Below are positions 21,811-32,190 of a DNA stretch of 33,594 nucleotides, in pieces. This DNA comes from Bacteroidia bacterium (GTDB taxonomy: Bacteria; Bacteroidota; Bacteroidia; JANWVE01). The notes beneath the pieces are model-generated. The model ran no database searches and was not told where the DNA came from. It saw only the letters and a list, made by a program, of their open reading frames with translations. How positions within the stretch are numbered: the stretch's first letter is position 1; each line of letters opens with the position of its first letter. The translations under genes were made by a program, and so were the position numbers. The stretch spans positions 1 through 33,594 of the forward strand of contig JANWVW010000006.1 of NCBI GenBank assembly GCA_025056095.1. Reading direction: 5' to 3'.

Positions 21811-22338
21811 TTATCGTGTAATACCCAGTTTTTTCTTGACTAGTTCGGTGATATTAAATTCCTCTGGACCATACAACAAAATTGGCGAAGTTCCTGAACC
21901 TGCGTCTGTGTTGAAGATATAAGTATAGTCATTTTCTACTGCCACTTCTTTGATTACTTTATCTAATTTTTCATACAAAGGCTGCATGAGCTCCTGATTT
22001 TTTTTAATAAGCTCTTCTTCCATTTGACTTTCTGCCTTGAGCAATTCTTGCTGCTCTTTGAGCAGCTCTTCTTCTTTTTGTTTTTTAGCAGCTTCGTTCA
22101 TTGTGGACATCTTAGCTTGATATTCTTTTACCTTGTTCTCATACGCAGCTAATTGTTCTTTGAGCTTATTTTCTAACTGTAAACGATATGTAGCATAATC
22201 TTTTTCTACTATTTTTAGTTCAGGCATGAGCTGAATAAGGTACTCTACGTTAGTATAGCCTATTTTAAGAGGCTTAAACTGTGCATAAACAGTACAAAAA
22301 CAAAATAATAAAGTACTAATAACCAAATGTTTGAACAT
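21811..22338 (-). CDS. OmpH/Skp family periplasmic chaperone (second copy)
   Basis: 175 aa, with a signal peptide (about 1-19, ending TVYAQ). KIGYTNVEYLIQLMPELKIVEKDYATYRLQLENKL, then a long helical coiled-coil hairpin rich in Glu/Lys/Gln (45-115), then YEKLDKVIKEVAVENDYTYIFNTDAGSG. This is the Skp layout: small beta core with protruding helical tentacles that hold unfolded outer-membrane proteins for BamA. It follows a paralogue by 13 bases. The two share the start (PLKIGYTNV) and end (GPE...ITELVKKKLGI) and differ mostly in the tentacles, so they arose by tandem duplication. Confidence 0.92.
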   Translation of the reverse strand: MFKHLVISTLLFCFCTVYAQFKPLKIGYTNVEYLIQLMPELKIVEKDYATYRLQLENKLKEQLAAYENKVKEYQAKMSTMNEAAKKQKEEELLKEQQELLKAESQMEEELIKKNQELMQPLYEKLDKVIKEVAVENDYTYIFNTDAGSGTSPILLYGPEEFNITELVKKKLGITR

Positions 22339-22351
22339 AATTCAATTAACC

Positions 22352-22891
22352 TTACTTGCTAATTCCTAATTTTTTCTTTACCAAATCAGTAATATTTCCC
22401 TCATCAGGTCCATGTAAAAGAATAGGTGTAGTACCTGCACCTGCATCAGAATTGAATATATATGTATAACCGTTTTCTTGGGCTACTTCTTTTATAGCCT
22501 TGTCTACCTTGTCTAATATAGGTTGTAGCAGAGCTTGTTGTTTTTGAGCTAATTGACTTTCGGAGCTTTTTTCTAACTTACCCAGCTCTTCTTGCATAAT
22601 AAGCAAGTCTTTTTCTTTTTGGAGTTTAGTAGGTCCTGATATAGTTCCTGCCTTTACACCCTCAGAATAACTCTTTAATGCGTTTTCATAAGCTTCATAT
22701 TTAGCCTTCAAAGTTGCCTCTAGTTCTTGTTTGTATTTAATCAAGTCCTCTTCTACTTTTTTAGCCTCAGGCATTAAACTTACTATGTAATCCACGTTTG
22801 TATAACCTATTTTTAAGGGTTTTATGGGCTGGGCAGCTGCAGCAAAGATAGTTACACTTACTACCACAAGAGCTACAATTTGTTTGTTCAT
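22352..22891 (-). CDS. OmpH/Skp family periplasmic chaperone (first copy)
   Basis: 179 aa, with a signal peptide (MNKQIVALVVVSVTIFAAAAQ). The same domain plan as the next gene: KPLKIGYTNVDYIVSLMPEAKKVEEDLIKYKQELEATL, helical tentacles (50-120), and VDKAIKEVAQENGYTYIFNSDAGAGTTPILLHGPDEGNITDLV. It probably binds nascent outer-membrane proteins in the periplasm; the two copies may form hetero-trimers. Here no BamA gene sits upstream, as it often does in Bacteroidota; a histidine kinase gene diverges instead. A near-perfect promoter lies 13 bases before the ATG. Confidence 0.92.
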   Translation of the reverse strand: MNKQIVALVVVSVTIFAAAAQPIKPLKIGYTNVDYIVSLMPEAKKVEEDLIKYKQELEATLKAKYEAYENALKSYSEGVKAGTISGPTKLQKEKDLLIMQEELGKLEKSSESQLAQKQQALLQPILDKVDKAIKEVAQENGYTYIFNSDAGAGTTPILLHGPDEGNITDLVKKKLGISK

Positions 22892-23075: not shown

Positions 23076-24146
23076 ATGCTCAAAAAATTATCTGCTACTA
23101 ATGCCGTAGTACTATTCTCAGTTATTGTAGGGATAGCCAATGGAGTAGCTGTTCACCTTATTGGGAAAATGAATGTATTTTTTTCTATTCTATCTGCAAT
23201 TTTAGTAGCAGGGCTGAACAGTGCAGTATTGTTGTTTTTGTTAGAATTCTTTTTTTACAGGCGCATACGAAGAATATACAAAAATATAGCTGCCCTAAAA
23301 GCCAATCAATTTGAGCGTATTGCTTATCCTGAAACAAAAGTTACTCAAAATGATCCACTTGAAAACATCAACTATGAAATAATAGAACTAGCAAATAAAA
23401 GCCGTGAAGAGATAAAAAAACTCAAAGACCTGGAACAATATCGTAAGGAGTTTATTGCAAATGTATCCCATGAGCTTAAAACCCCGATATTTGCTGTACA
23501 AGGTTATATTGATACCTTATTAGAAGGTGCAATTGATGACGCTAAATTTAACCGCATCTTTTTACAAAAAGCCATGAATAATGCTGAAAGGTTAGTTACT
23601 TTAGTTCAAGACCTAATGGCTATCTCTCAGTTAGAAACAGGACAGTTGCAAATGGAAATGAAACCTTTTTTAATTCATGATTTAGTAGCTGAAACGATAG
23701 AAAGTTTAGATCTCCAAGCTAAAAGTAAAAAAATTACTCTACAAATGGTTAACCCTGATGCGGTCCGTAAAACGTATGTAATTGCGGATAAAGAAAGAAT
23801 AAGGCAAGTTTTTGTTAATCTGATTTCTAATTCCATACGATACGGAAAAGAAGGGGGAACAACTAATATCTATTTTAACGTATCTACTCGTAAAGTTAAA
23901 ATTAGTATAGAAGATAACGGAATTGGTATAGCTGCTGAACATCTACCCCGTATTTTTGAACGCTTTTATAGAGTAGACAAAAGCCGCTCACGCGAAGGCG
24001 GAGGTACAGGTTTAGGTCTTTCTATCGTTAAGCATATCTTAGAAGCCCATAACGAACCTATAGAAGTATATAGCGAACCCAACGTAGGAACTACTTTTTC
24101 ATTTTCTCTAGATATATACTCTTCTCCACTTACTCATAACTCTTAA
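23076..24146 (+). CDS. PhoR-like sensor histidine kinase
   Basis: 356 aa. Two N-terminal membrane segments (about 10-30 and 35-60) with almost no periplasmic loop, so it likely senses within the membrane or through partners. A short linker and coiled coil (100-125) lead to the dimerisation/phosphoacceptor domain with H132 in FIANVSHELKTPIFAVQGYIDTLLEG. The ATPase domain has the N box NLISNSIRYG, G1 DNGIGI, F box FERFYRVDKSRSREGG and G2 GTGLGLSIVKHILEAH. All catalytic motifs are intact. No response regulator is adjacent. The export operon begins 91 bases downstream on the same strand and could be co-transcribed. Confidence 0.93.
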   Translation: MLKKLSATNAVVLFSVIVGIANGVAVHLIGKMNVFFSILSAILVAGLNSAVLLFLLEFFFYRRIRRIYKNIAALKANQFERIAYPETKVTQNDPLENINYEIIELANKSREEIKKLKDLEQYRKEFIANVSHELKTPIFAVQGYIDTLLEGAIDDAKFNRIFLQKAMNNAERLVTLVQDLMAISQLETGQLQMEMKPFLIHDLVAETIESLDLQAKSKKITLQMVNPDAVRKTYVIADKERIRQVFVNLISNSIRYGKEGGTTNIYFNVSTRKVKISIEDNGIGIAAEHLPRIFERFYRVDKSRSREGGGTGLGLSIVKHILEAHNEPIEVYSEPNVGTTFSFSLDIYSSPLTHNS

Positions 24147-24237: not shown

Positions 24238-25773
24238 ATGAATCCTATTGGTTTATTTTTCAAATACATGGGCTTGTATCGCAAACATGTCATATACGTT
24301 TTGATTTATAGCCTAGTCAATGGAGTTATTACCCTAATTATTCCATTTTCTACCCAGTTGCTTATTACATACATCAGCACAGGTGTATTATTTGCTTCCT
24401 GGTATGTGCTAGTAGTCTTGTTAGGTATTGCAATTGTGTTTAATGGCATTCTACAAGTTTATCAACTTACCATTACTGAAAATTTACAACAAAGCTTGTT
24501 CAGAAATATTGGATTAAATTTACATAACCGTATCCTTAAAGGGGTATTTACCGAAAAAAATGCTATTGAAATTGCTAACCATTTCTATGAAGCAATTTTA
24601 CTACAAAAAGCTGTTCCCAAAGTTTTAATTGATTTGCCTACAGCTTTTCTACAAATTTTACTAGGCTTTTTACTTATTAGCTTTTATCATTCCTTCTTTG
24701 CCTTTTTAGTAATTGTAATGCTATTGATTACGTATTTAGCTATCCGCAGCATAAGCAATAAAACCTTTAAAATCTCTGTGGAAGAATCAGAGCATAAATA
24801 TGCTACCCTGCACTGGCTGCAGATCAAAGGAAATGATGAAGAAAGCACTACTATCATTCACAACCCATTCTCATGGAAAAAAGTAGACAGTTATATTGCC
24901 AAATATCTACGTAAAAGAAATGAGCACTTTCGAATGCTTAAACAGCACTATATCACTCTAATTATTATTAAAGTAATTATTACTCTCACGTTAATGTTTT
25001 TAGGTGGAGTATTAGTGGGTCAAGGTACGATTACCTTTGGTCAATTTGTCGCATCTGAGTTAATTATTTTAATTATGATTGCAGCGGTAGAAAAGATTAT
25101 TTTTAGTGTAGACATCATTTATGACATGCTAACCAACATTTATAAAATTGAAAAAATCCTGACCATCAAAGAATATGAAGAAATGCCTTTGCCCGAATTT
25201 GATATACACTTCCCACTTACGATTGAGTTTAAAGATGTAGTAATTAACATAGATGGATATGAAACGCATATCAACGAAGTAATTCACCTCTATCAAGGCG
25301 AGCAGAAAAAGTCTTCTGTACAGCTTCTGGAATATCTTTACTTCATTTTACATAAGCACAAGGTAGTAGTACTAAGTGGAGAGCTACTCTTTAATGGTAT
25401 TAACATTCTCAAAGTCCATTATGACCACCATGATATGCTCTTTATCAATCGCCATGATCAACTCTTCAAAGGTACCATACGAGAAAATATCTGTCTTACA
25501 CACAACATTAGTGATATGGAACTGATAGAATGGCTGCAATCTTTTGGAATATGGGATACTATTCAACACTTAGAGTACGGACTAGATACTGTTATTACTC
25601 ATCAATCTATTTTATCTGACCGATTTACGTATAAAATCATTTTATTGAGAACTTTGTTAGTCAACCCAACTCTATTGATTGTTAATAATATTTTCAGTTA
25701 TTTAGATGATGAATTTATTGAAGCTTTCAAAAAAGAACTTCAAAGGCGGAATATTACTTTAATTTATAGCTAA
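24238..25773 (+). CDS. ABC-exporter-like membrane protein with degenerate ATPase domain
   Basis: 511 aa. Residues 1-310 resemble a type-1 ABC exporter membrane domain with about six segments (17-40, 53-75, 133-152, 153-170, 240-262, 270-292). Residues 327-511 align with an ABC ATPase (LTIEFKDVVINIDGYETHINEVIHLYQGEQ, GELLFNGINI, LFKGTIRENI, LLRTLLVNPTLLIVNN, SYLDDE), but every catalytic motif is gone. The P-loop is deleted after GEQ (354-356); the Q-loop Gln is R405; LSGGQ reads LSDRF (459-463); Walker B Asp/Glu are N483/N484; and the protein ends (ITLIYS) just where the H-loop His should be. The frame is intact, so it is not a pseudogene. HlyD and TolC partners follow in the same operon. Mechanism and substrate are unknown. 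Confidence 0.87.
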   Translation: MNPIGLFFKYMGLYRKHVIYVLIYSLVNGVITLIIPFSTQLLITYISTGVLFASWYVLVVLLGIAIVFNGILQVYQLTITENLQQSLFRNIGLNLHNRILKGVFTEKNAIEIANHFYEAILLQKAVPKVLIDLPTAFLQILLGFLLISFYHSFFAFLVIVMLLITYLAIRSISNKTFKISVEESEHKYATLHWLQIKGNDEESTTIIHNPFSWKKVDSYIAKYLRKRNEHFRMLKQHYITLIIIKVIITLTLMFLGGVLVGQGTITFGQFVASELIILIMIAAVEKIIFSVDIIYDMLTNIYKIEKILTIKEYEEMPLPEFDIHFPLTIEFKDVVINIDGYETHINEVIHLYQGEQKKSSVQLLEYLYFILHKHKVVVLSGELLFNGINILKVHYDHHDMLFINRHDQLFKGTIRENICLTHNISDMELIEWLQSFGIWDTIQHLEYGLDTVITHQSILSDRFTYKIILLRTLLVNPTLLIVNNIFSYLDDEFIEAFKKELQRRNITLIYS

Positions 25774-25777
25774 GACT

Positions 25778-27133
25778 ATGGGACTAGGAGGAACACATCT
25801 TAATGAGTACAAAACGCCAAGTTTAGAGCAGTTAAGCGATATTCGCCCACATGTAGTGTTGGCGAGAATTATTCAAATTTTTTTAGTTATTCTAATAGGA
25901 TTTATGTTTTTACCTTGGACGCAAAATGTTCAAGGTGTAGGTACGGTAACTACTTTGCGACCCAATGATAGACCACAGTCAATTCCCTCTATTATTACAG
26001 GCAGGATTGAGGAGTGGTATGTACGAGAGGGAGATTTTGTTAAAAAAGGGGACACTATTGTACGCATTTCAGAAGCAAAAGAGGACTACTTCGATCCAAA
26101 TCTAATAGAAAACACTAATAAACAAATTATCGCTAAGGAAGAAGCCATCAAAGCATACATGGAAAAGGTTAATGCTTTGGAAATGCAGCTCAAAGCCCTA
26201 AGAGAAGGACTACAAGCTAAACTTAGTCAAGCCTACAACAAGTTAGAACAAGCTAAACTTAAATTAGTTATTGATAGTAACGAATATGTTAATGCTAAAG
26301 TAAATTTAGATATTTCTAATGCACAAGCTAAACGTTTTGAAGAACTCTACAAAGATGGGCTTAAATCTTTAACAGAATTAGAAGGGCGAAGATTGAAGCA
26401 ACAAGAGGCACTAAATAAATACAATGCTTCTTTGAATAAACTCAACATTACTCAACAAGAAATTAACAATGCCAAGTTAGAAATTGCTAACATTACCGCA
26501 GAATATAATGACAAAATAGCTAAAACAGAAGCCGAGCAGTTTTCTACCTTATCTGCGGCGTATGACGCGCGTGCTACGGTAGCAAAATTACGTTCTCAAC
26601 TTAATACATACACTAAAAGACAATCTTACTACTACATTACTGCACCACAGGATTGTTACATTGTTCAAGCAATTAAATTAGGTATTGGGGAGATAGTCAA
26701 AGATGGAACGCCTTTGGTTACCATAGTTCCTGCAAATTATCAAGTAGCTTCCACAATCTACATTAGTCCCAGAGATTATCCCGTAGTCCATATTGGTGAT
26801 GAAGTGCGCATGCAATTTGACGGCTATCCCAGCTTAGTATTCGGTGGGTGGCCTAACGCGAGTATAGGTACTTTCAAAGGTAAGGTAGTAGCTATTGATA
26901 AAAACATTAGTGAAAATAATAAATACAGAGTATTAGTAGCCCCCGCAGAAGGTGAAAAGTGGCCCGATAAATTAGCTATCAATTCAGGTAGCACAGGGAT
27001 TATACTTCTAAAAGACGTACCTTTGGGCTATGAAATATGGCGCCAACTCAATGGCTTCCCACCTCAATACTATGAAGAAGTTAACACCCCTGACAAAAAG
27101 TATAAGAAAAATGACAAGTCTGATAAAAAGTAA
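25778..27133 (+). CDS. HlyD-family membrane fusion (periplasmic adaptor) protein
   Basis: 451 aa. One membrane segment (about 28-46; IIQIFLVILIGFMFLPW), then a lipoyl/barrel-sandwich half-motif (SIITGRIEEWYVREGDFVKKGDTIVRI). A long alpha-helical hairpin follows (about 105-275), long enough to reach an outer-membrane channel, then the second lipoyl half (YYITAPQDCYIVQAIKLGIGEIVKDGTPLVTIVP) and a beta-barrel domain (VASTIYISPRDYPVVHIGDEVRMQFDGYP). It starts 4 bases after the ABC-like gene and overlaps the TolC-like gene by 23 bases, so the three are translationally linked. Role: bridge between the inner-membrane component and the outer-membrane channel. Confidence 0.92.
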   Translation: MGLGGTHLNEYKTPSLEQLSDIRPHVVLARIIQIFLVILIGFMFLPWTQNVQGVGTVTTLRPNDRPQSIPSIITGRIEEWYVREGDFVKKGDTIVRISEAKEDYFDPNLIENTNKQIIAKEEAIKAYMEKVNALEMQLKALREGLQAKLSQAYNKLEQAKLKLVIDSNEYVNAKVNLDISNAQAKRFEELYKDGLKSLTELEGRRLKQQEALNKYNASLNKLNITQQEINNAKLEIANITAEYNDKIAKTEAEQFSTLSAAYDARATVAKLRSQLNTYTKRQSYYYITAPQDCYIVQAIKLGIGEIVKDGTPLVTIVPANYQVASTIYISPRDYPVVHIGDEVRMQFDGYPSLVFGGWPNASIGTFKGKVVAIDKNISENNKYRVLVAPAEGEKWPDKLAINSGSTGIILLKDVPLGYEIWRQLNGFPPQYYEEVNTPDKKYKKNDKSDKK

Positions 27134-28487
27134 GAGTTTTTTAGTTTGCTTTTGTGTAGTGTGGTATACTTACCTGCCTGCCGATAGTTTATCTAAAAAA
27201 ACACTTTCTTTCGAGGACTTCTATGGTATTATCAAAGAACACCACCCGCTAGTCCAACAACTGCGGATAGGTATTGCGTTAGCAAGAGCAGAAAAAGCCA
27301 AAGCTAATGCTGCTTTTATTCCAAAATTTGGTCTGCAAGCAGATGAAAAATTTCTTAATCAACCTTATTATAGCTTACTTAACGCTAATTTCAAAGCCCC
27401 TACTTGGTATGGAATAGACCTTAAAATACAATATGAGCAAAATCGCGGTAGATATATTAACCCTGAAAACGTTACTCCAAAAGAAGGCTTGCTTACCGCA
27501 GGTATAAGCATCCCACTAATGGAAGGACTAATCCAAAATGAAAATCGGATTCGTGCTTTACAAGCTAAAATTGGCGTATTCAACGCAGAGAATGAACTGA
27601 TTATCATCCTTAACCAAATTATGATGGACGCTACCCAAGCTTACTGGGAATGGACTTACCATTATTTCAATCTTAAACTTTCGCAAAAGCTGTATCAACG
27701 GGCTGTAGATAGACACAAAGGTATCTGCACTATGTTCTTCAAAGGAGATAGACCTGCTTCTGATACACTAGAGTCTTTTACTTTTGTACAAGATAGACAA
27801 ATTACCCTTTTAGACGCAGAGCGAAAATTCATAGAGTCCCAATGGACCCTTAATACTTTTTTCTGGCTTAACAATCAGCCTATGCCTATTAGCGAATTAC
27901 TTGTTCCACATAGAATTCAAAATGTTATCTCTAAACCCATAACTGTGGATACAATACTTTCGCAACATCCTTTTATTCGCTACTATGACTACAAAATTCA
28001 ACAACTTAATCTTGACCTTAAACTTAAACGAAACAAAATTCTTCCCGAAGTTTATTTGGACTATAACTTTTTAAGCAAAGGATTTTCGGGTAGTTGGAGC
28101 AGCAATAACTATAAATGGCGAGTTACCATAGCCTTTCCACTATGGGTGCAAAAAGAACTAGCCGATGTGCGAATCACTCGATATAAGCTACAGCAAACAC
28201 AATTAGGTAGGGACTTTAAGCGCATAGAGCTAAACAACAAACTTCAAAACTATAAAACTCAACTAGAACTCTTACAAGCTCAAAATGAAAACTTGGACAA
28301 AGCAGTTGAAAACTTCAAAACCTTGCTCAAACAAGAAGAAATTAAATTTCAAATGGGTGAAAGTTCTATCTTTATGATTATTAGCCGTGAAAACAAATTG
28401 TTTGAAGTAGAGCAAAAGCAAATCAAAATACAAACAGAGTACTACAAATATGAGAGCTTACTCAGAGCATTACAAATGCAGTTCTAG
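27111..28487 (+). CDS. TolC-family outer-membrane efflux/secretion channel
   Basis: 458 aa from the ATG at 27111, chosen because a signal peptide starts there (MTSLIKSKSFLVCFCVVWYTYLPADS); upstream in-frame ATGs lie deep inside the adaptor gene. The protein has the TolC-type pair of internal repeats: long helices rich in Ala/Gln/Lys/Glu with LSFEDFYGIIKEHHPLVQQLRIGIALARAEKAKANAAFIPKFGLQAD in the first half and LKLKRNKILPEVYLDYNFLSKG in the second. It forms the trimeric exit duct. Last gene of the three-gene export operon, ending 10 bases before the convergent LamG gene. Confidence 0.88.
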   Translation: MTSLIKSKSFLVCFCVVWYTYLPADSLSKKTLSFEDFYGIIKEHHPLVQQLRIGIALARAEKAKANAAFIPKFGLQADEKFLNQPYYSLLNANFKAPTWYGIDLKIQYEQNRGRYINPENVTPKEGLLTAGISIPLMEGLIQNENRIRALQAKIGVFNAENELIIILNQIMMDATQAYWEWTYHYFNLKLSQKLYQRAVDRHKGICTMFFKGDRPASDTLESFTFVQDRQITLLDAERKFIESQWTLNTFFWLNNQPMPISELLVPHRIQNVISKPITVDTILSQHPFIRYYDYKIQQLNLDLKLKRNKILPEVYLDYNFLSKGFSGSWSSNNYKWRVTIAFPLWVQKELADVRITRYKLQQTQLGRDFKRIELNNKLQNYKTQLELLQAQNENLDKAVENFKTLLKQEEIKFQMGESSIFMIISRENKLFEVEQKQIKIQTEYYKYESLLRALQMQF

Positions 28488-28497
28488 TTCGCTCTGC

Positions 28498-29595
28498 TTA
28501 CTCTTGTTGCATTAAATTAGCGTAGATTATTTTTCCATTTTCTTCTATACAAACCCATAATAACCTTCTTAGCGTACTTTTTTGAAGGATTACACTGTTT
28601 TGTGTAAGATTAAATTCAACTTTTCTACCCAAAGCATCAAAAATTAAAAGATTTTGATTCGGCTTTAAGCTATTTTTCAAATAAAATTGTGTATCAAACG
28701 GATTGGGATAAAAGTTATGCAATGAGTTTAATCTATTTTCCTCTACCGTTGTAACTGATGACTTTAGTACCCATACAGGTCCAGGGGTACCTGACCCTCC
28801 AAACTTCACTATTCCATTACTAGGTCCACCTGAATAGCCTGATACATCTAATAAAGTAGTGCCTGAACCTTCATCAAAGTGGTATAGACCAACAGTATTA
28901 GCATCGGTTGTAAAAGGAGTAGTAGGAGGAGTGAAGTTAGTAGTGTAGCGAATTACGTTAGAAATTCTCAATTCGTCAATATATCCGTTATAAGAAGGAT
29001 AAACAAGAGGGTTGTAGTCATGTTTTTCTGCACCGATAACAATGTAAGGGTCATTGGGATAGCTAGTTATACGCCCATTTCGGTAACTAATATTTCCTGT
29101 AGGTCCGGTAGACACAGAAGCATCTAAATTTCCGTCCACGAATATTCGCATACTACCCGTAGTGCTATTGCGAGTAACAGCTATATGGTGCCAAGCGTTA
29201 TCCGCAACGTTTGTGCTACCTATCAAAGTAAAAGATTGTGTACCATTATTAACACCAAAAGCAATTTTTCCCGCTACTAATGAAATACCGTAATCTCCAT
29301 AATCTCCTGCTCCAAAAATGTCCCTGTCTATAATAATATGACCCAAAGTCCAATCATCATTACTTCCTTGTACAGCGCTGCTGCCTAATGGATTGTCGGA
29401 AATAGAAGCTCTCATTTCAAACTCAATAGTAAAATCGCTAGATACATCCACAGGTTTTTCAGGGGCATCAATAGGAATTTTTACTCTGTCAATATCACCT
29501 GTGCCATGCCCATAAAAACGCATGCAATAATTTTGGGCGCTTGTATAGGAAACTACTAACAAGCATACTACAAAAACATATTTCATTTTCACCAT
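28498..29595 (-). CDS. Secreted LamG/concanavalin-like protein with T9SS type A sorting domain
   Basis: 365 aa. Signal peptide to about SYTSAQ (residue 21); an ATG nine bases in is also possible. A LamG/concanavalin A-like jelly roll (about 45-255) shows FTIEFEMRASIS, NAWHHIAVTRNSTTGSMRIFVDGNLDASV, YIDELRISNVIRYT and VGLYHFDEGSGTTLLDVSGYSG. The C-terminal ~75 residues are a type A sorting domain (HNFYPNPFDTQFYLKN, LLIFDALGRKVEF) for export and attachment by T9SS. Probable surface adhesin or glycan binder; ligand unknown. The second half of the sorting domain is slightly unusual, with a Cys and no GxY motif. Confidence 0.85.
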   Translation of the reverse strand: MVKMKYVFVVCLLVVSYTSAQNYCMRFYGHGTGDIDRVKIPIDAPEKPVDVSSDFTIEFEMRASISDNPLGSSAVQGSNDDWTLGHIIIDRDIFGAGDYGDYGISLVAGKIAFGVNNGTQSFTLIGSTNVADNAWHHIAVTRNSTTGSMRIFVDGNLDASVSTGPTGNISYRNGRITSYPNDPYIVIGAEKHDYNPLVYPSYNGYIDELRISNVIRYTTNFTPPTTPFTTDANTVGLYHFDEGSGTTLLDVSGYSGGPSNGIVKFGGSGTPGPVWVLKSSVTTVEENRLNSLHNFYPNPFDTQFYLKNSLKPNQNLLIFDALGRKVEFNLTQNSVILQKSTLRRLLWVCIEENGKIIYANLMQQE

Positions 29596-29700: not shown

Positions 29701-32190
29701 TCACACTGCATCCACAATCTTTCTGTACTCTTTTATTCTACGGCGGATAGCTAAACCAAAGCCTACCATTAGCAAGCCTGTACCTAACCACAAAACATTT
29801 ATCAAGGGCTTTCGCATAGCTTTGAGTACAACCCAGTCTGCATTAACACTTTTAGTAGGTTCAACTTGAATAACAATTTTCCGTTGTTCAGGTAGAATTT
29901 GCATAAACCGAATAATTTCTCCTGTTTCCTTGAACTCCACATCTTGCCCTGTGGGTGTGTTAGAGTTTTTTTCTACTAAATAGATAGGTTCAATATCAGC
30001 TATTTGTTTAGTACCAATTGCTTTTATTTTTGCACCTACGGCAATGTCGTACTGTTCAGGATTATCTACTTTGACCTGCGTGTTCAGACCTTCAAGAATA
30101 AGGTAACTTTTACCTGTATCTATTGTATCTCCTATTTGTACAGTGTAGTTACGTATTTCCATTGCTTTTCTTTTAGCCTCAGGGTTAGGAATACTCGTGA
30201 TATGCACATAGATATCGCCATCTATTTTAGTTTTGATAGCAGGGCGAGGGGCGTCGCCCATACGAGGATTTTCATCTACAACAGGATACAAAGTAAACGT
30301 TTTGCCATTAGATTGTTGAAATTCTATTTCATAAATTGTTCTGATACCTTTTTGCTCTTCTCCCTTGTATGTTACTAGATAATCCCCCATTTGACGGGGC
30401 TGGTCTTTTATCAATAGTACATTTTCTCGCCTGTCTTTCGGTGTAGCAAAACCTTTTCCTAACTCATTTTCATTCGTGTTGATAGAAATAACCCGATTAT
30501 AGCCCGAAGAGAATAAAATTCCAATTAACATAAGTCCTACACCGATGTGCGCTACAGCACCTCCTGCAATAGAAATGTTTCGCTTCAGAATAGTAAGAAT
30601 TAACATTAAATTAGAAACCACTGTGAAACAAGCTGCAAGTAAGAGTACGATATATTTTAAATAAGTAAGCTGTCCTAAATACTGTGCAACGTCATTTTCA
30701 GGTTTCATGATGAACAATATGATAAGTGCTGTAAGAACATAAGTAATACTTAGCGGAGTCATAAGAGACTTGAACACAGAAGTGCTTGTTTTTTGCCAAA
30801 ATACCCATTGCGCTATTCCTGATGCCGTGGCTAAAAGTACCATTAGCCAAAGCTGCCATTCGCTATAAAACTGAATAGGATCTGCCAAAGCAGCGTTCGT
30901 ACCAAAAATTTTGTTAAATACAGGTAGAGAAGTAGGTATAATAACTTGAAAAGCACTCAAAACTAAAATGACCACTCCTATAAAAAGCCAAAATTCTCTG
31001 TGGTAAATTTTTATTTCTTTGTCTGTAATGGGAATATGCTTGAAACGATAGACTAGTAAGCCAACAGACAAACCTAAAAAAAGAAATATGAATAAAAGTA
31101 GCTGTCCTGAAAGTCCTAAATCAGTAAAACTATGTACAGAACTGTTACCCAATATTCCGCTTCTGGTTAGAAAGGTACTGTATAAGATTAACATCCAAGC
31201 GGCAATAACTAAGATAAAAGTAGTTCGAAGGGCATTTTTAGAGTGCTTGTATATTATCATAGTGTGGATACTGGCTACACCTATCAACCACGGCACGTAA
31301 GAGGCATTTTCTACAGGATCCCAATTCCAGTAACCCCCAAAGTTTAAGGTTACGTAAGCCCAGTAGCCCCCCATCAAAATACCTAATCCTAACACCGCTA
31401 CCGCAAGAATGTTCCAAGGCATAGCAGGTTTGATCCAAGCATCAAATTCTTTTTTCCACAAACCTGCCATACAATACGCAAAAGGTACTATCATTAAAGC
31501 AAAACCTAAAAATAATGTCGGCGGATGTATGACCATCCAATAATTTTGCAGCAAAGGATTCAATCCTTTTCCATCTTTGGGGACAAAATTTGGATTTATC
31601 TTATACACAGGTAGATCAGGATTGGCATCTTTCATAAAAATAAAAGGATCGCTACCTATTTTAAGCCCAAAAATGTACGTTCCTAAAAGCATACTTGCTA
31701 ATACAAATTGACAAGCACTCAAAATAGATAAAAGCCTATTTTCAAAATGCTTAGCCGTTTTAATTAACACTAAACCAATAATACTATGCCAAAACATCCA
31801 TAGCCAAAAACTACCCTCTTGTCCTTCCCAAAAGCATGAAATCATGTAATACCAGGGTAAATCATTAGAAGAATGGTTCCACACATAGAAATATTGATAT
31901 TGATGCGTGTGAATTAGATAAAACAATGCTATTCCAATCCCTAATACTGAACTTACATGCAAATAAAAGCTCAATTTACCTATTCGCTGCCAGGTAAAAG
32001 ACTCTACTGTATTTGTTTTTTGTTCAGCAAAAAAATAGGCATAAGCAGCTAAAAAAGCAGTTAAAAGTGCCATGATGACAAAAAAGTGCCCTGCAAAACC
32101 TGTATGATGCGTTCTAGAAAATACTCCTGCAATAATGTACAGTAAGCCAACACCCAAATATATATAGTGCTTGAACTTTATATTTTTCAT
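29701..32190 (-). CDS. CcmF/CcsA-type cytochrome c heme lyase
   Basis: 829 aa, larger than proteobacterial CcmF (about 650). Inner-membrane protein with about 15 segments that handles heme for attachment to apocytochrome c. Motifs: SFWLWMFWH (127-135), the CcmF stretch NPLLQNYWMVIHPPTLFLGF (211-230) and the tryptophan-rich heme-binding WWD-type motif GGYWNWDPVENASYVPWLIG (285-304). Conserved His residues on the flanking segments fit heme ligation. A large soluble beta-rich periplasmic domain (about 570-790) precedes a last membrane segment (LINVLWLGTGLLMVGFGLAI). No ccmE or apocytochrome gene is adjacent. Confidence 0.92.
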   Translation of the reverse strand: MKNIKFKHYIYLGVGLLYIIAGVFSRTHHTGFAGHFFVIMALLTAFLAAYAYFFAEQKTNTVESFTWQRIGKLSFYLHVSSVLGIGIALFYLIHTHQYQYFYVWNHSSNDLPWYYMISCFWEGQEGSFWLWMFWHSIIGLVLIKTAKHFENRLLSILSACQFVLASMLLGTYIFGLKIGSDPFIFMKDANPDLPVYKINPNFVPKDGKGLNPLLQNYWMVIHPPTLFLGFALMIVPFAYCMAGLWKKEFDAWIKPAMPWNILAVAVLGLGILMGGYWAYVTLNFGGYWNWDPVENASYVPWLIGVASIHTMIIYKHSKNALRTTFILVIAAWMLILYSTFLTRSGILGNSSVHSFTDLGLSGQLLLFIFLFLGLSVGLLVYRFKHIPITDKEIKIYHREFWLFIGVVILVLSAFQVIIPTSLPVFNKIFGTNAALADPIQFYSEWQLWLMVLLATASGIAQWVFWQKTSTSVFKSLMTPLSITYVLTALIILFIMKPENDVAQYLGQLTYLKYIVLLLAACFTVVSNLMLILTILKRNISIAGGAVAHIGVGLMLIGILFSSGYNRVISINTNENELGKGFATPKDRRENVLLIKDQPRQMGDYLVTYKGEEQKGIRTIYEIEFQQSNGKTFTLYPVVDENPRMGDAPRPAIKTKIDGDIYVHITSIPNPEAKRKAMEIRNYTVQIGDTIDTGKSYLILEGLNTQVKVDNPEQYDIAVGAKIKAIGTKQIADIEPIYLVEKNSNTPTGQDVEFKETGEIIRFMQILPEQRKIVIQVEPTKSVNADWVVLKAMRKPLINVLWLGTGLLMVGFGLAIRRRIKEYRKIVDAV

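Follow-up and report, generated by a model that had tools for sequence, protein, structure and literature searches.

A Bacteroidota-wide HlyD-TolC operon family whose ABC-exporter-derived subunit has a predicted dead or absent ATPase

ABC exporters are defined by the coupling of ATP hydrolysis to transport. An operon in a 33,594-nucleotide stretch of DNA from a Bacteroidia bacterium (the window throughout this text) raises the question of what such an exporter can do in a tripartite envelope system when its own ATPase is predicted to be dead. We propose, as the probable answer, that the operon represents a conserved tripartite envelope system, composed of an exporter transmembrane domain (TMD), HlyD and TolC and descended from a type I-secretion or PCAT-like ABC exporter, which has abandoned ATP hydrolysis at its inner-membrane subunit in the branch to which the window belongs.

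The operon and its inner-membrane protein

The operon (24238-28487, forward strand) begins with a gene (24238-25773) for a 511-aa inner-membrane protein of ABC-exporter origin, in which the nucleotide-binding domain (NBD) is predicted to be dead and truncated. Encoded together with it, on the same strand, are a 451-aa HlyD-type periplasmic adaptor (25778-27133), whose hairpin tip R-L-S (KRFEELYKDGLKS) is kept across the family, and a TolC-type outer-membrane factor (27111-28487). The longest version of the TolC reading frame starts at 27030; the likely start is 27111, which gives a signal-peptide-like N terminus (MTSLIKSKSFLVCFC). With this start the predicted spacing of the genes holds, namely a gap of 4 bases before HlyD and an overlap of exactly 23 bases between HlyD and TolC. 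A PhoR-like sensor histidine kinase gene (23076-24146) ends 91 bases upstream of the operon, and two adjacent OmpH/Skp-like chaperone genes occupy 21811-22891 on the reverse strand. Directly after the TolC gene lies a reverse-strand gene for a LamG-type protein (28498-29595) with a weak match to a type IX secretion C-terminal sorting domain, followed by that of an 829-aa protein (29701-32190) matching Cytochrom_C_asm and CcmF_C, which are associated with cytochrome c biogenesis.

Profile and fold searches group the 511-aa protein with PCAT1, HlyB and PrtD, and it is an ABC-exporter fold by descent. PCAT1 was the best match in the fold search, with HlyB and PrtD within the top 20. The best NCBIfam match over the TMD was NHLM_micro_ABC1, and NCBIfam type I secretion ATPase models matched residues about 380-503. 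The Pfam search returned a weak match to ABC_membrane only and none to ABC_tran. The structural evidence consists of two monomer predictions, one for the window protein and one for an N-extended relative; AlphaFold confidence for the former is high over residues 1-310, low over residues 311-400 and good over residues 401-505. The TMD (residues 1-310; 24238-25167) is conserved in the family and includes the invariant residues E81, K124, K187, E274, E285, K286 and K303. Within it lies the ICL2 coupling-helix segment (residues 194-215, LQIKGNDEESTTIIHNPFSWKK; 24817-24882), from which the family consensus TFKLAG has been erased.

The degenerate NBD (residues 311-511; 25168-25770) has Arg405 at the Q-loop position (25450-25452), LSDRF in place of the LSGGQ signature (residues 459-463; 25612-25626) and Asn483-Asn484 at the position of the Walker B Asp-Glu pair (25684-25689), and these residue calls of the original prediction hold. 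Loss of the P-loop was likewise called correctly, but its proposed deletion after G354-E-Q is uncertain: the remnant QGEQKKSS (residues 353-360; 25294-25317) fits onto GxxGSGKST without gaps, having lost the glycines and retained the Lys and Ser residues, and the motif may have been substituted in place instead of deleted, a verdict that depends on the alignment. The description of the ATPase fold as intact does not stand. The chain ends in ITLIYS directly before the H-loop, which leaves it about 40-60 residues below the length of most relatives, and in other lineages the domain is wholly absent. As judged from its motifs, the 511-aa protein lacks an ATP-binding cassette competent to bind and hydrolyse ATP.

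The NBD remnant was nevertheless suspected to be selected rather than decaying, and its relatives within the genus bear this out. The 511-aa frame recurs at unchanged length in two sister species, with 92-93% identity. Within the genus, the remnant has a dN of 0.04-0.09 against a saturated dS (about 2, or not computable), and the TMD and HlyD behave in the same manner with respect to dN/dS. Because two congeners keep the same length at these values of dN and dS, the remnant is, by substitution rates, under strong purifying selection. The draft state of the genome (397 contigs) could invite suspicion of a recent pseudogene or of an assembly or sequencing error; given the shared frame in two sister species, and given that NBD-less members of the family are located in multi-megabase contigs, the probability of such an artefact is negligible. 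Recent decay or a frameshift was thus excluded by the two congeners and the saturated dS. Seemingly split or truncated genes in four other genomes (G245, G179, G235 and G284) were attributed to contig ends and left out.

Distribution of the family and loss of the ATPase

By homology, the TMD-HlyD-TolC family is Bacteroidota-wide. A member was found in 28 of 60 relative genomes (the window's own genome counted), with scores well apart from those of ordinary exporters. A class-wide scan listed about 150 places, a phylum scan located members in 78 of 297 genomes, and a scan of named genomes confirmed at least 570 relatives, the best 80 of which include Flavobacterium, Polaribacter, Olleya, Aquimarina, Salegentibacter, Roseivirga and Saprospiraceae and also take in metagenome bins, labelled either as Bacteroidota or with no precise name. 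Like the window genome, most of the relatives are known from draft assemblies, and many of these are metagenomic. From the scan results 128 loci were picked, with odd lengths included on purpose, and fractions among them are biased frequencies. Within this biased sample, HlyD and TolC follow almost always: the operon order is kept in 123 of 126 loci (HlyD then TolC in 117, TolC after a TMD-HlyD fusion in six), and the three exceptions comprise two contig ends and one unexplained locus (L117). The latter encodes a 758-aa member, and no HlyD or TolC gene was detected in the 9.2 kb examined. One genome (G016) carries two operon copies in distinct places (L042 and L052). Members of 690-830 aa (L048, L042, L250, L254 and others) have an N-terminal domain that aligns over its full length with the N-domain of PCAT1 and HlyB in fold searches; along the tree it is gained or lost about 7 times. 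An active C39 peptidase was considered for this extension and rejected, since despite the fold alignment none of the 33 extended members had a Pfam match to that peptidase.

The alignment columns of the motifs were located with the help of ordinary exporters from the same genome. In the 113 NBD-bearing members that could be used, the signature was found in none, the Q-loop Gln in 3, the P-loop in 88, the Walker B Asp-Glu pair in 10, the H-loop His in 10, and the pair together with the His in 3. The 80 further named loci had no signature, no Asp-Glu and no His, and retained the Q-loop Gln in 3 cases and the P-loop in 71. Pooled, the 193 NBD-bearing relatives on the window's branch have LSGGQ in 0, the Q-loop Gln in 6, Asp-Glu with His in 3 and the P-loop in 159, and with LSGGQ at 0/193 a functional combination of Walker A, Walker B, signature and H-loop is missing. 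These counts show the predicted hydrolysis machinery to be lost throughout the branch. The losses are, on the alignments, family-wide and not peculiar to the window copy; close homologues share them and do not carry normal motifs. The family has its own consensus at two of these sites: LPxSxxxK replaces the signature, and LLxED occupies the Walker B site. These positions are therefore constrained, not random. Retention of the P-loop in about 80% of NBD-bearing members shows, as far as motif conservation can, that nucleotide binding still matters in most of them.

The NBD is missing from some members. Five genomes encode a protein of 333-339 aa that consists of the TMD only, with HlyD and TolC directly after; four of the five genes overlap the HlyD start by 8 bases and the fifth stops 34 bases before it, and three of them lie on contigs of 3-7 Mb. 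In six other members TMD and HlyD are fused into a single chain of 749-781 aa, with TolC next. Comparison of these proteins with the rest of the family shows that the whole predicted NBD was lost on two branches with the other parts and the gene order kept, and the ATPase domain would appear to be dispensable.

A tree built on TMD and HlyD, with branch support from a quick search, places TMD-only proteins and fusions in clades distinct from each other, each with full support. This tree contains 16 changes of P-loop state, of which at least 12 are forced by well-supported branches, and the motif appears to have been lost about 12-16 times, the window genus included. Fifteen rows of relatives from other classes group together as a supported outgroup, in which the P-loop is present in 15/15, Asp-Glu and His in 13/15, and LSTGQ in 3; the outgroup too is without the Q-loop Gln at the aligned position. 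Asp-Glu and His are lost on the 127-row side of the rooted tree. Because the outgroup keeps the P-loop, Asp-Glu and His, and sometimes LSTGQ, the direction of change is read as loss from an ATPase-bearing ancestor. The hydrolysis machinery would have been lost first, on the window's branch, then the P-loop, repeatedly, and then the whole domain. Four loci labelled as another class (L243, L244, L245 and L261) fall on the degenerate side, being equally degenerate and 60-74% identical in the TMD to same-class members; gene transfer or taxonomy may account for their placement.

Energy source of the conduit

The original prediction had offered three readings of a system built on a pseudo-ATPase: another energy source, an active half-transporter partner encoded elsewhere, or a static conduit. 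The first and the last both stand, whereas the existence of relatives lacking an NBD and the erosion of the coupling helix disfavour the partner. Such a partner, an active ABC exporter joining the window protein in a heterodimer like TmrAB or TM287/288, would supply the hydrolysis. Site degeneracy is commonplace among heterodimeric exporters, a P-loop survives in most members of the family, and the window genome does encode three other ABC exporters. These are, however, ordinary full-length proteins, unlinked to the operon and 25-28% identical in the NBD, and the window holds no second ABC exporter cassette gene. Among the loci examined, no co-conserved ABC gene lies beside the operon outside one family of genomes (f3), in which an ordinary ABC exporter gene adjoins it; this gene, confined to f3, was rejected as a partner and taken as a chance neighbour. 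The genomes with TMD-only members contain no family-type NBD, their best matches reaching 18-30% identity versus 62% for the true sister NBD in a control genome. Known heterodimers also keep one consensus site formed from both chains; in the present family the signature, Walker B and H-loop have disappeared together. In exporters of this type the ICL2 coupling helix docks on the NBD, and we take the corresponding segment in the family to be the residues placed by alignment. Identity of this coupling helix 2 to the consensus is 0.59 in P-loop members, 0.16 in TMD-only members, 0.06 in fusions and 0.00 in the window genus, a drop far larger than that of the whole TMD (0.63, 0.46, 0.38 and 0.38, respectively). 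Coupling helix 1 is eroded in the fusions and the window genus and retained in the TMD-only clade (0.64). The putative NBD-docking helix is therefore eroded where the ATPase is predicted to be broken or gone, which holds for coupling helix 2. With no second catalytically competent half alongside the operon or consistently present in the genomes, a dedicated heterodimer partner is quite improbable. A generic ATPase, unlinked and unrelated, may act in trans, which is compatible with the sequence evidence.

If ATP hydrolysis has been abandoned at the inner membrane, as we propose, the TMD, probably a dimer as in its relatives, would act as the docking hub on which HlyD and TolC assemble into a conduit, or as its gate. 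The NBDs that still bear a P-loop would do no more than bind ATP, serving as a dispensable clamp or sensor with a structural or regulatory role, and the work would be powered by something else, for example a gradient across the membrane, loading that is downhill or takes place in the periplasm, or cargo passed on by another transporter. A bolder and more tentative version, to which we give somewhat less than even odds, is that an ABC-exporter TMD freed of its ATPase acts as the gradient-driven or energy-free inner-membrane part of a TolC conduit, with members forming a natural series from ATPase-bearing to dead, to none, and to the single-chain TMD/adaptor fusion. It is also possible, though on the doubtful side, that ATP binding without hydrolysis closes the NBDs and thereby assembles or gates the conduit in most members, the minority without P-loop or NBD being derived and bypassing the switch. 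The frequent P-loop in members that have lost the hydrolysis residues, and the constraint expressed in LLxED and LPxSxxxK, speak for this, but such a switch is inapplicable to the window genus, the TMD-only clade and the fusions, the P-loop has been lost many times over, and the signature, which is the normal clamp of the gamma-phosphate, is gone in all. An ABC TMD that draws on a proton or ion gradient, with E81, E274, K124 and other charged residues (window numbering) as the pathway, is rather unlikely. In the numbering of locus L037, E85, K131, K194 and K311 are present in 126/126 members and E282 in 125/126, NBD-less members included, D304 is also invariant or nearly so, and, in the same genome, three ordinary exporters carry different residues in the E85, K131, K194, E282 and K311 columns. 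The same invariant charges are nonetheless found in other-class relatives with a plausible ATPase, and they are therefore candidates for function and do not indicate that a proton pathway has newly arisen.

The remaining components bear on what the conduit might carry. The R-L-S hairpin tip of the HlyD adaptor is kept in about 77-94% of rows and is reported to be the shared TolC-binding motif of such adaptors (PMC3391258). A TetR/AcrR-like regulator gene, assigned by sequence pattern, stands beside the operon in 72/126 loci (e.g. L037, L038 and L072, as the gene at -1), including all six fusions, and points to a small-molecule or membrane-stress cue over a dedicated protein substrate. No gene for a secreted protein carrying a leader or C-terminal signal was conserved among the clustered flanks. 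In the window genus a histidine kinase gene takes the place of the TetR-like gene; a congener (L036) has a similar kinase gene upstream, where most of the family has the TetR-like regulator instead.

Relation to known systems

The claim that no system of this make-up had been described agrees with our literature search: among the papers it covered, chiefly those in open-access journals, none described a type I exporter of this kind with a dead ATPase or with no NBD. A general model of type I secretion systems (T1SS) is available (PMC4793230), a survey of flavobacterial genomes counts ABC-MFP-OMF sets as complete T1SS (PMC5395568), and Bacteroides fragilis has several putative T1SS with no known substrates (PMC4319957). 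Calls of complete T1SS in Bacteroidota, for example in Flavobacterium, may include systems incapable of ATP-driven secretion. The family is widespread, and its motor appears broken across one entire branch and deleted from some lineages within it, with the other components conserved. It offers a natural experiment, from which one may learn what the ABC membrane fold is capable of by itself and how energy may reach a tripartite conduit. The compactness of the TMD-only and TMD-HlyD fusion members makes the question directly testable.

The family shares with the HlyB-HlyD-TolC and PrtD systems the gene order ABC-MFP-OMF, a TMD and NBD that align with HlyB and PrtD, and the R-L-S adaptor tip. It differs from T1SS in that its ATPase is predicted to be dead or absent, no adjacent substrate gene was detected and a TetR-type regulator is common; the defining ATPase feature fails, and the family is therefore not to be filed as T1SS. 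PCAT1, ComA and NHLM ABC1 resemble it in the best fold match (PCAT1), the best NCBIfam TMD match (NHLM_micro_ABC1) and the N-domain of the 690-830-aa members. Unlike PCATs, the window protein has no N-terminal domain and the family no C39 peptidase match in its extended members; the family's ATPase is predicted to be dead, and its partners are HlyD and TolC. Degenerate catalytic residues in an exporter NBD are shared with TmrAB and TM287/288; in the family, by contrast, all motifs are degenerate, there is no partner gene and two clades have dispensed with the NBD. SUR1/SUR2 (ABCC8/9) and CFTR are ABC folds turned to non-pumping roles, which keep at least one working ATP site, whereas the present family forms part of a TolC conduit and includes members devoid of an NBD. 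With AcrAB-TolC (RND) and EmrAB-TolC (MFS) the family has in common an adaptor, TolC and an inner-membrane subunit predicted not to hydrolyse ATP, but that subunit has an ABC-exporter fold (ABC_membrane being its only Pfam match), unrelated to RND or MFS transporters. The lineage is, by homology, ABC-exporter/T1SS in descent, and by analogy the system possibly works like a tripartite efflux conduit.
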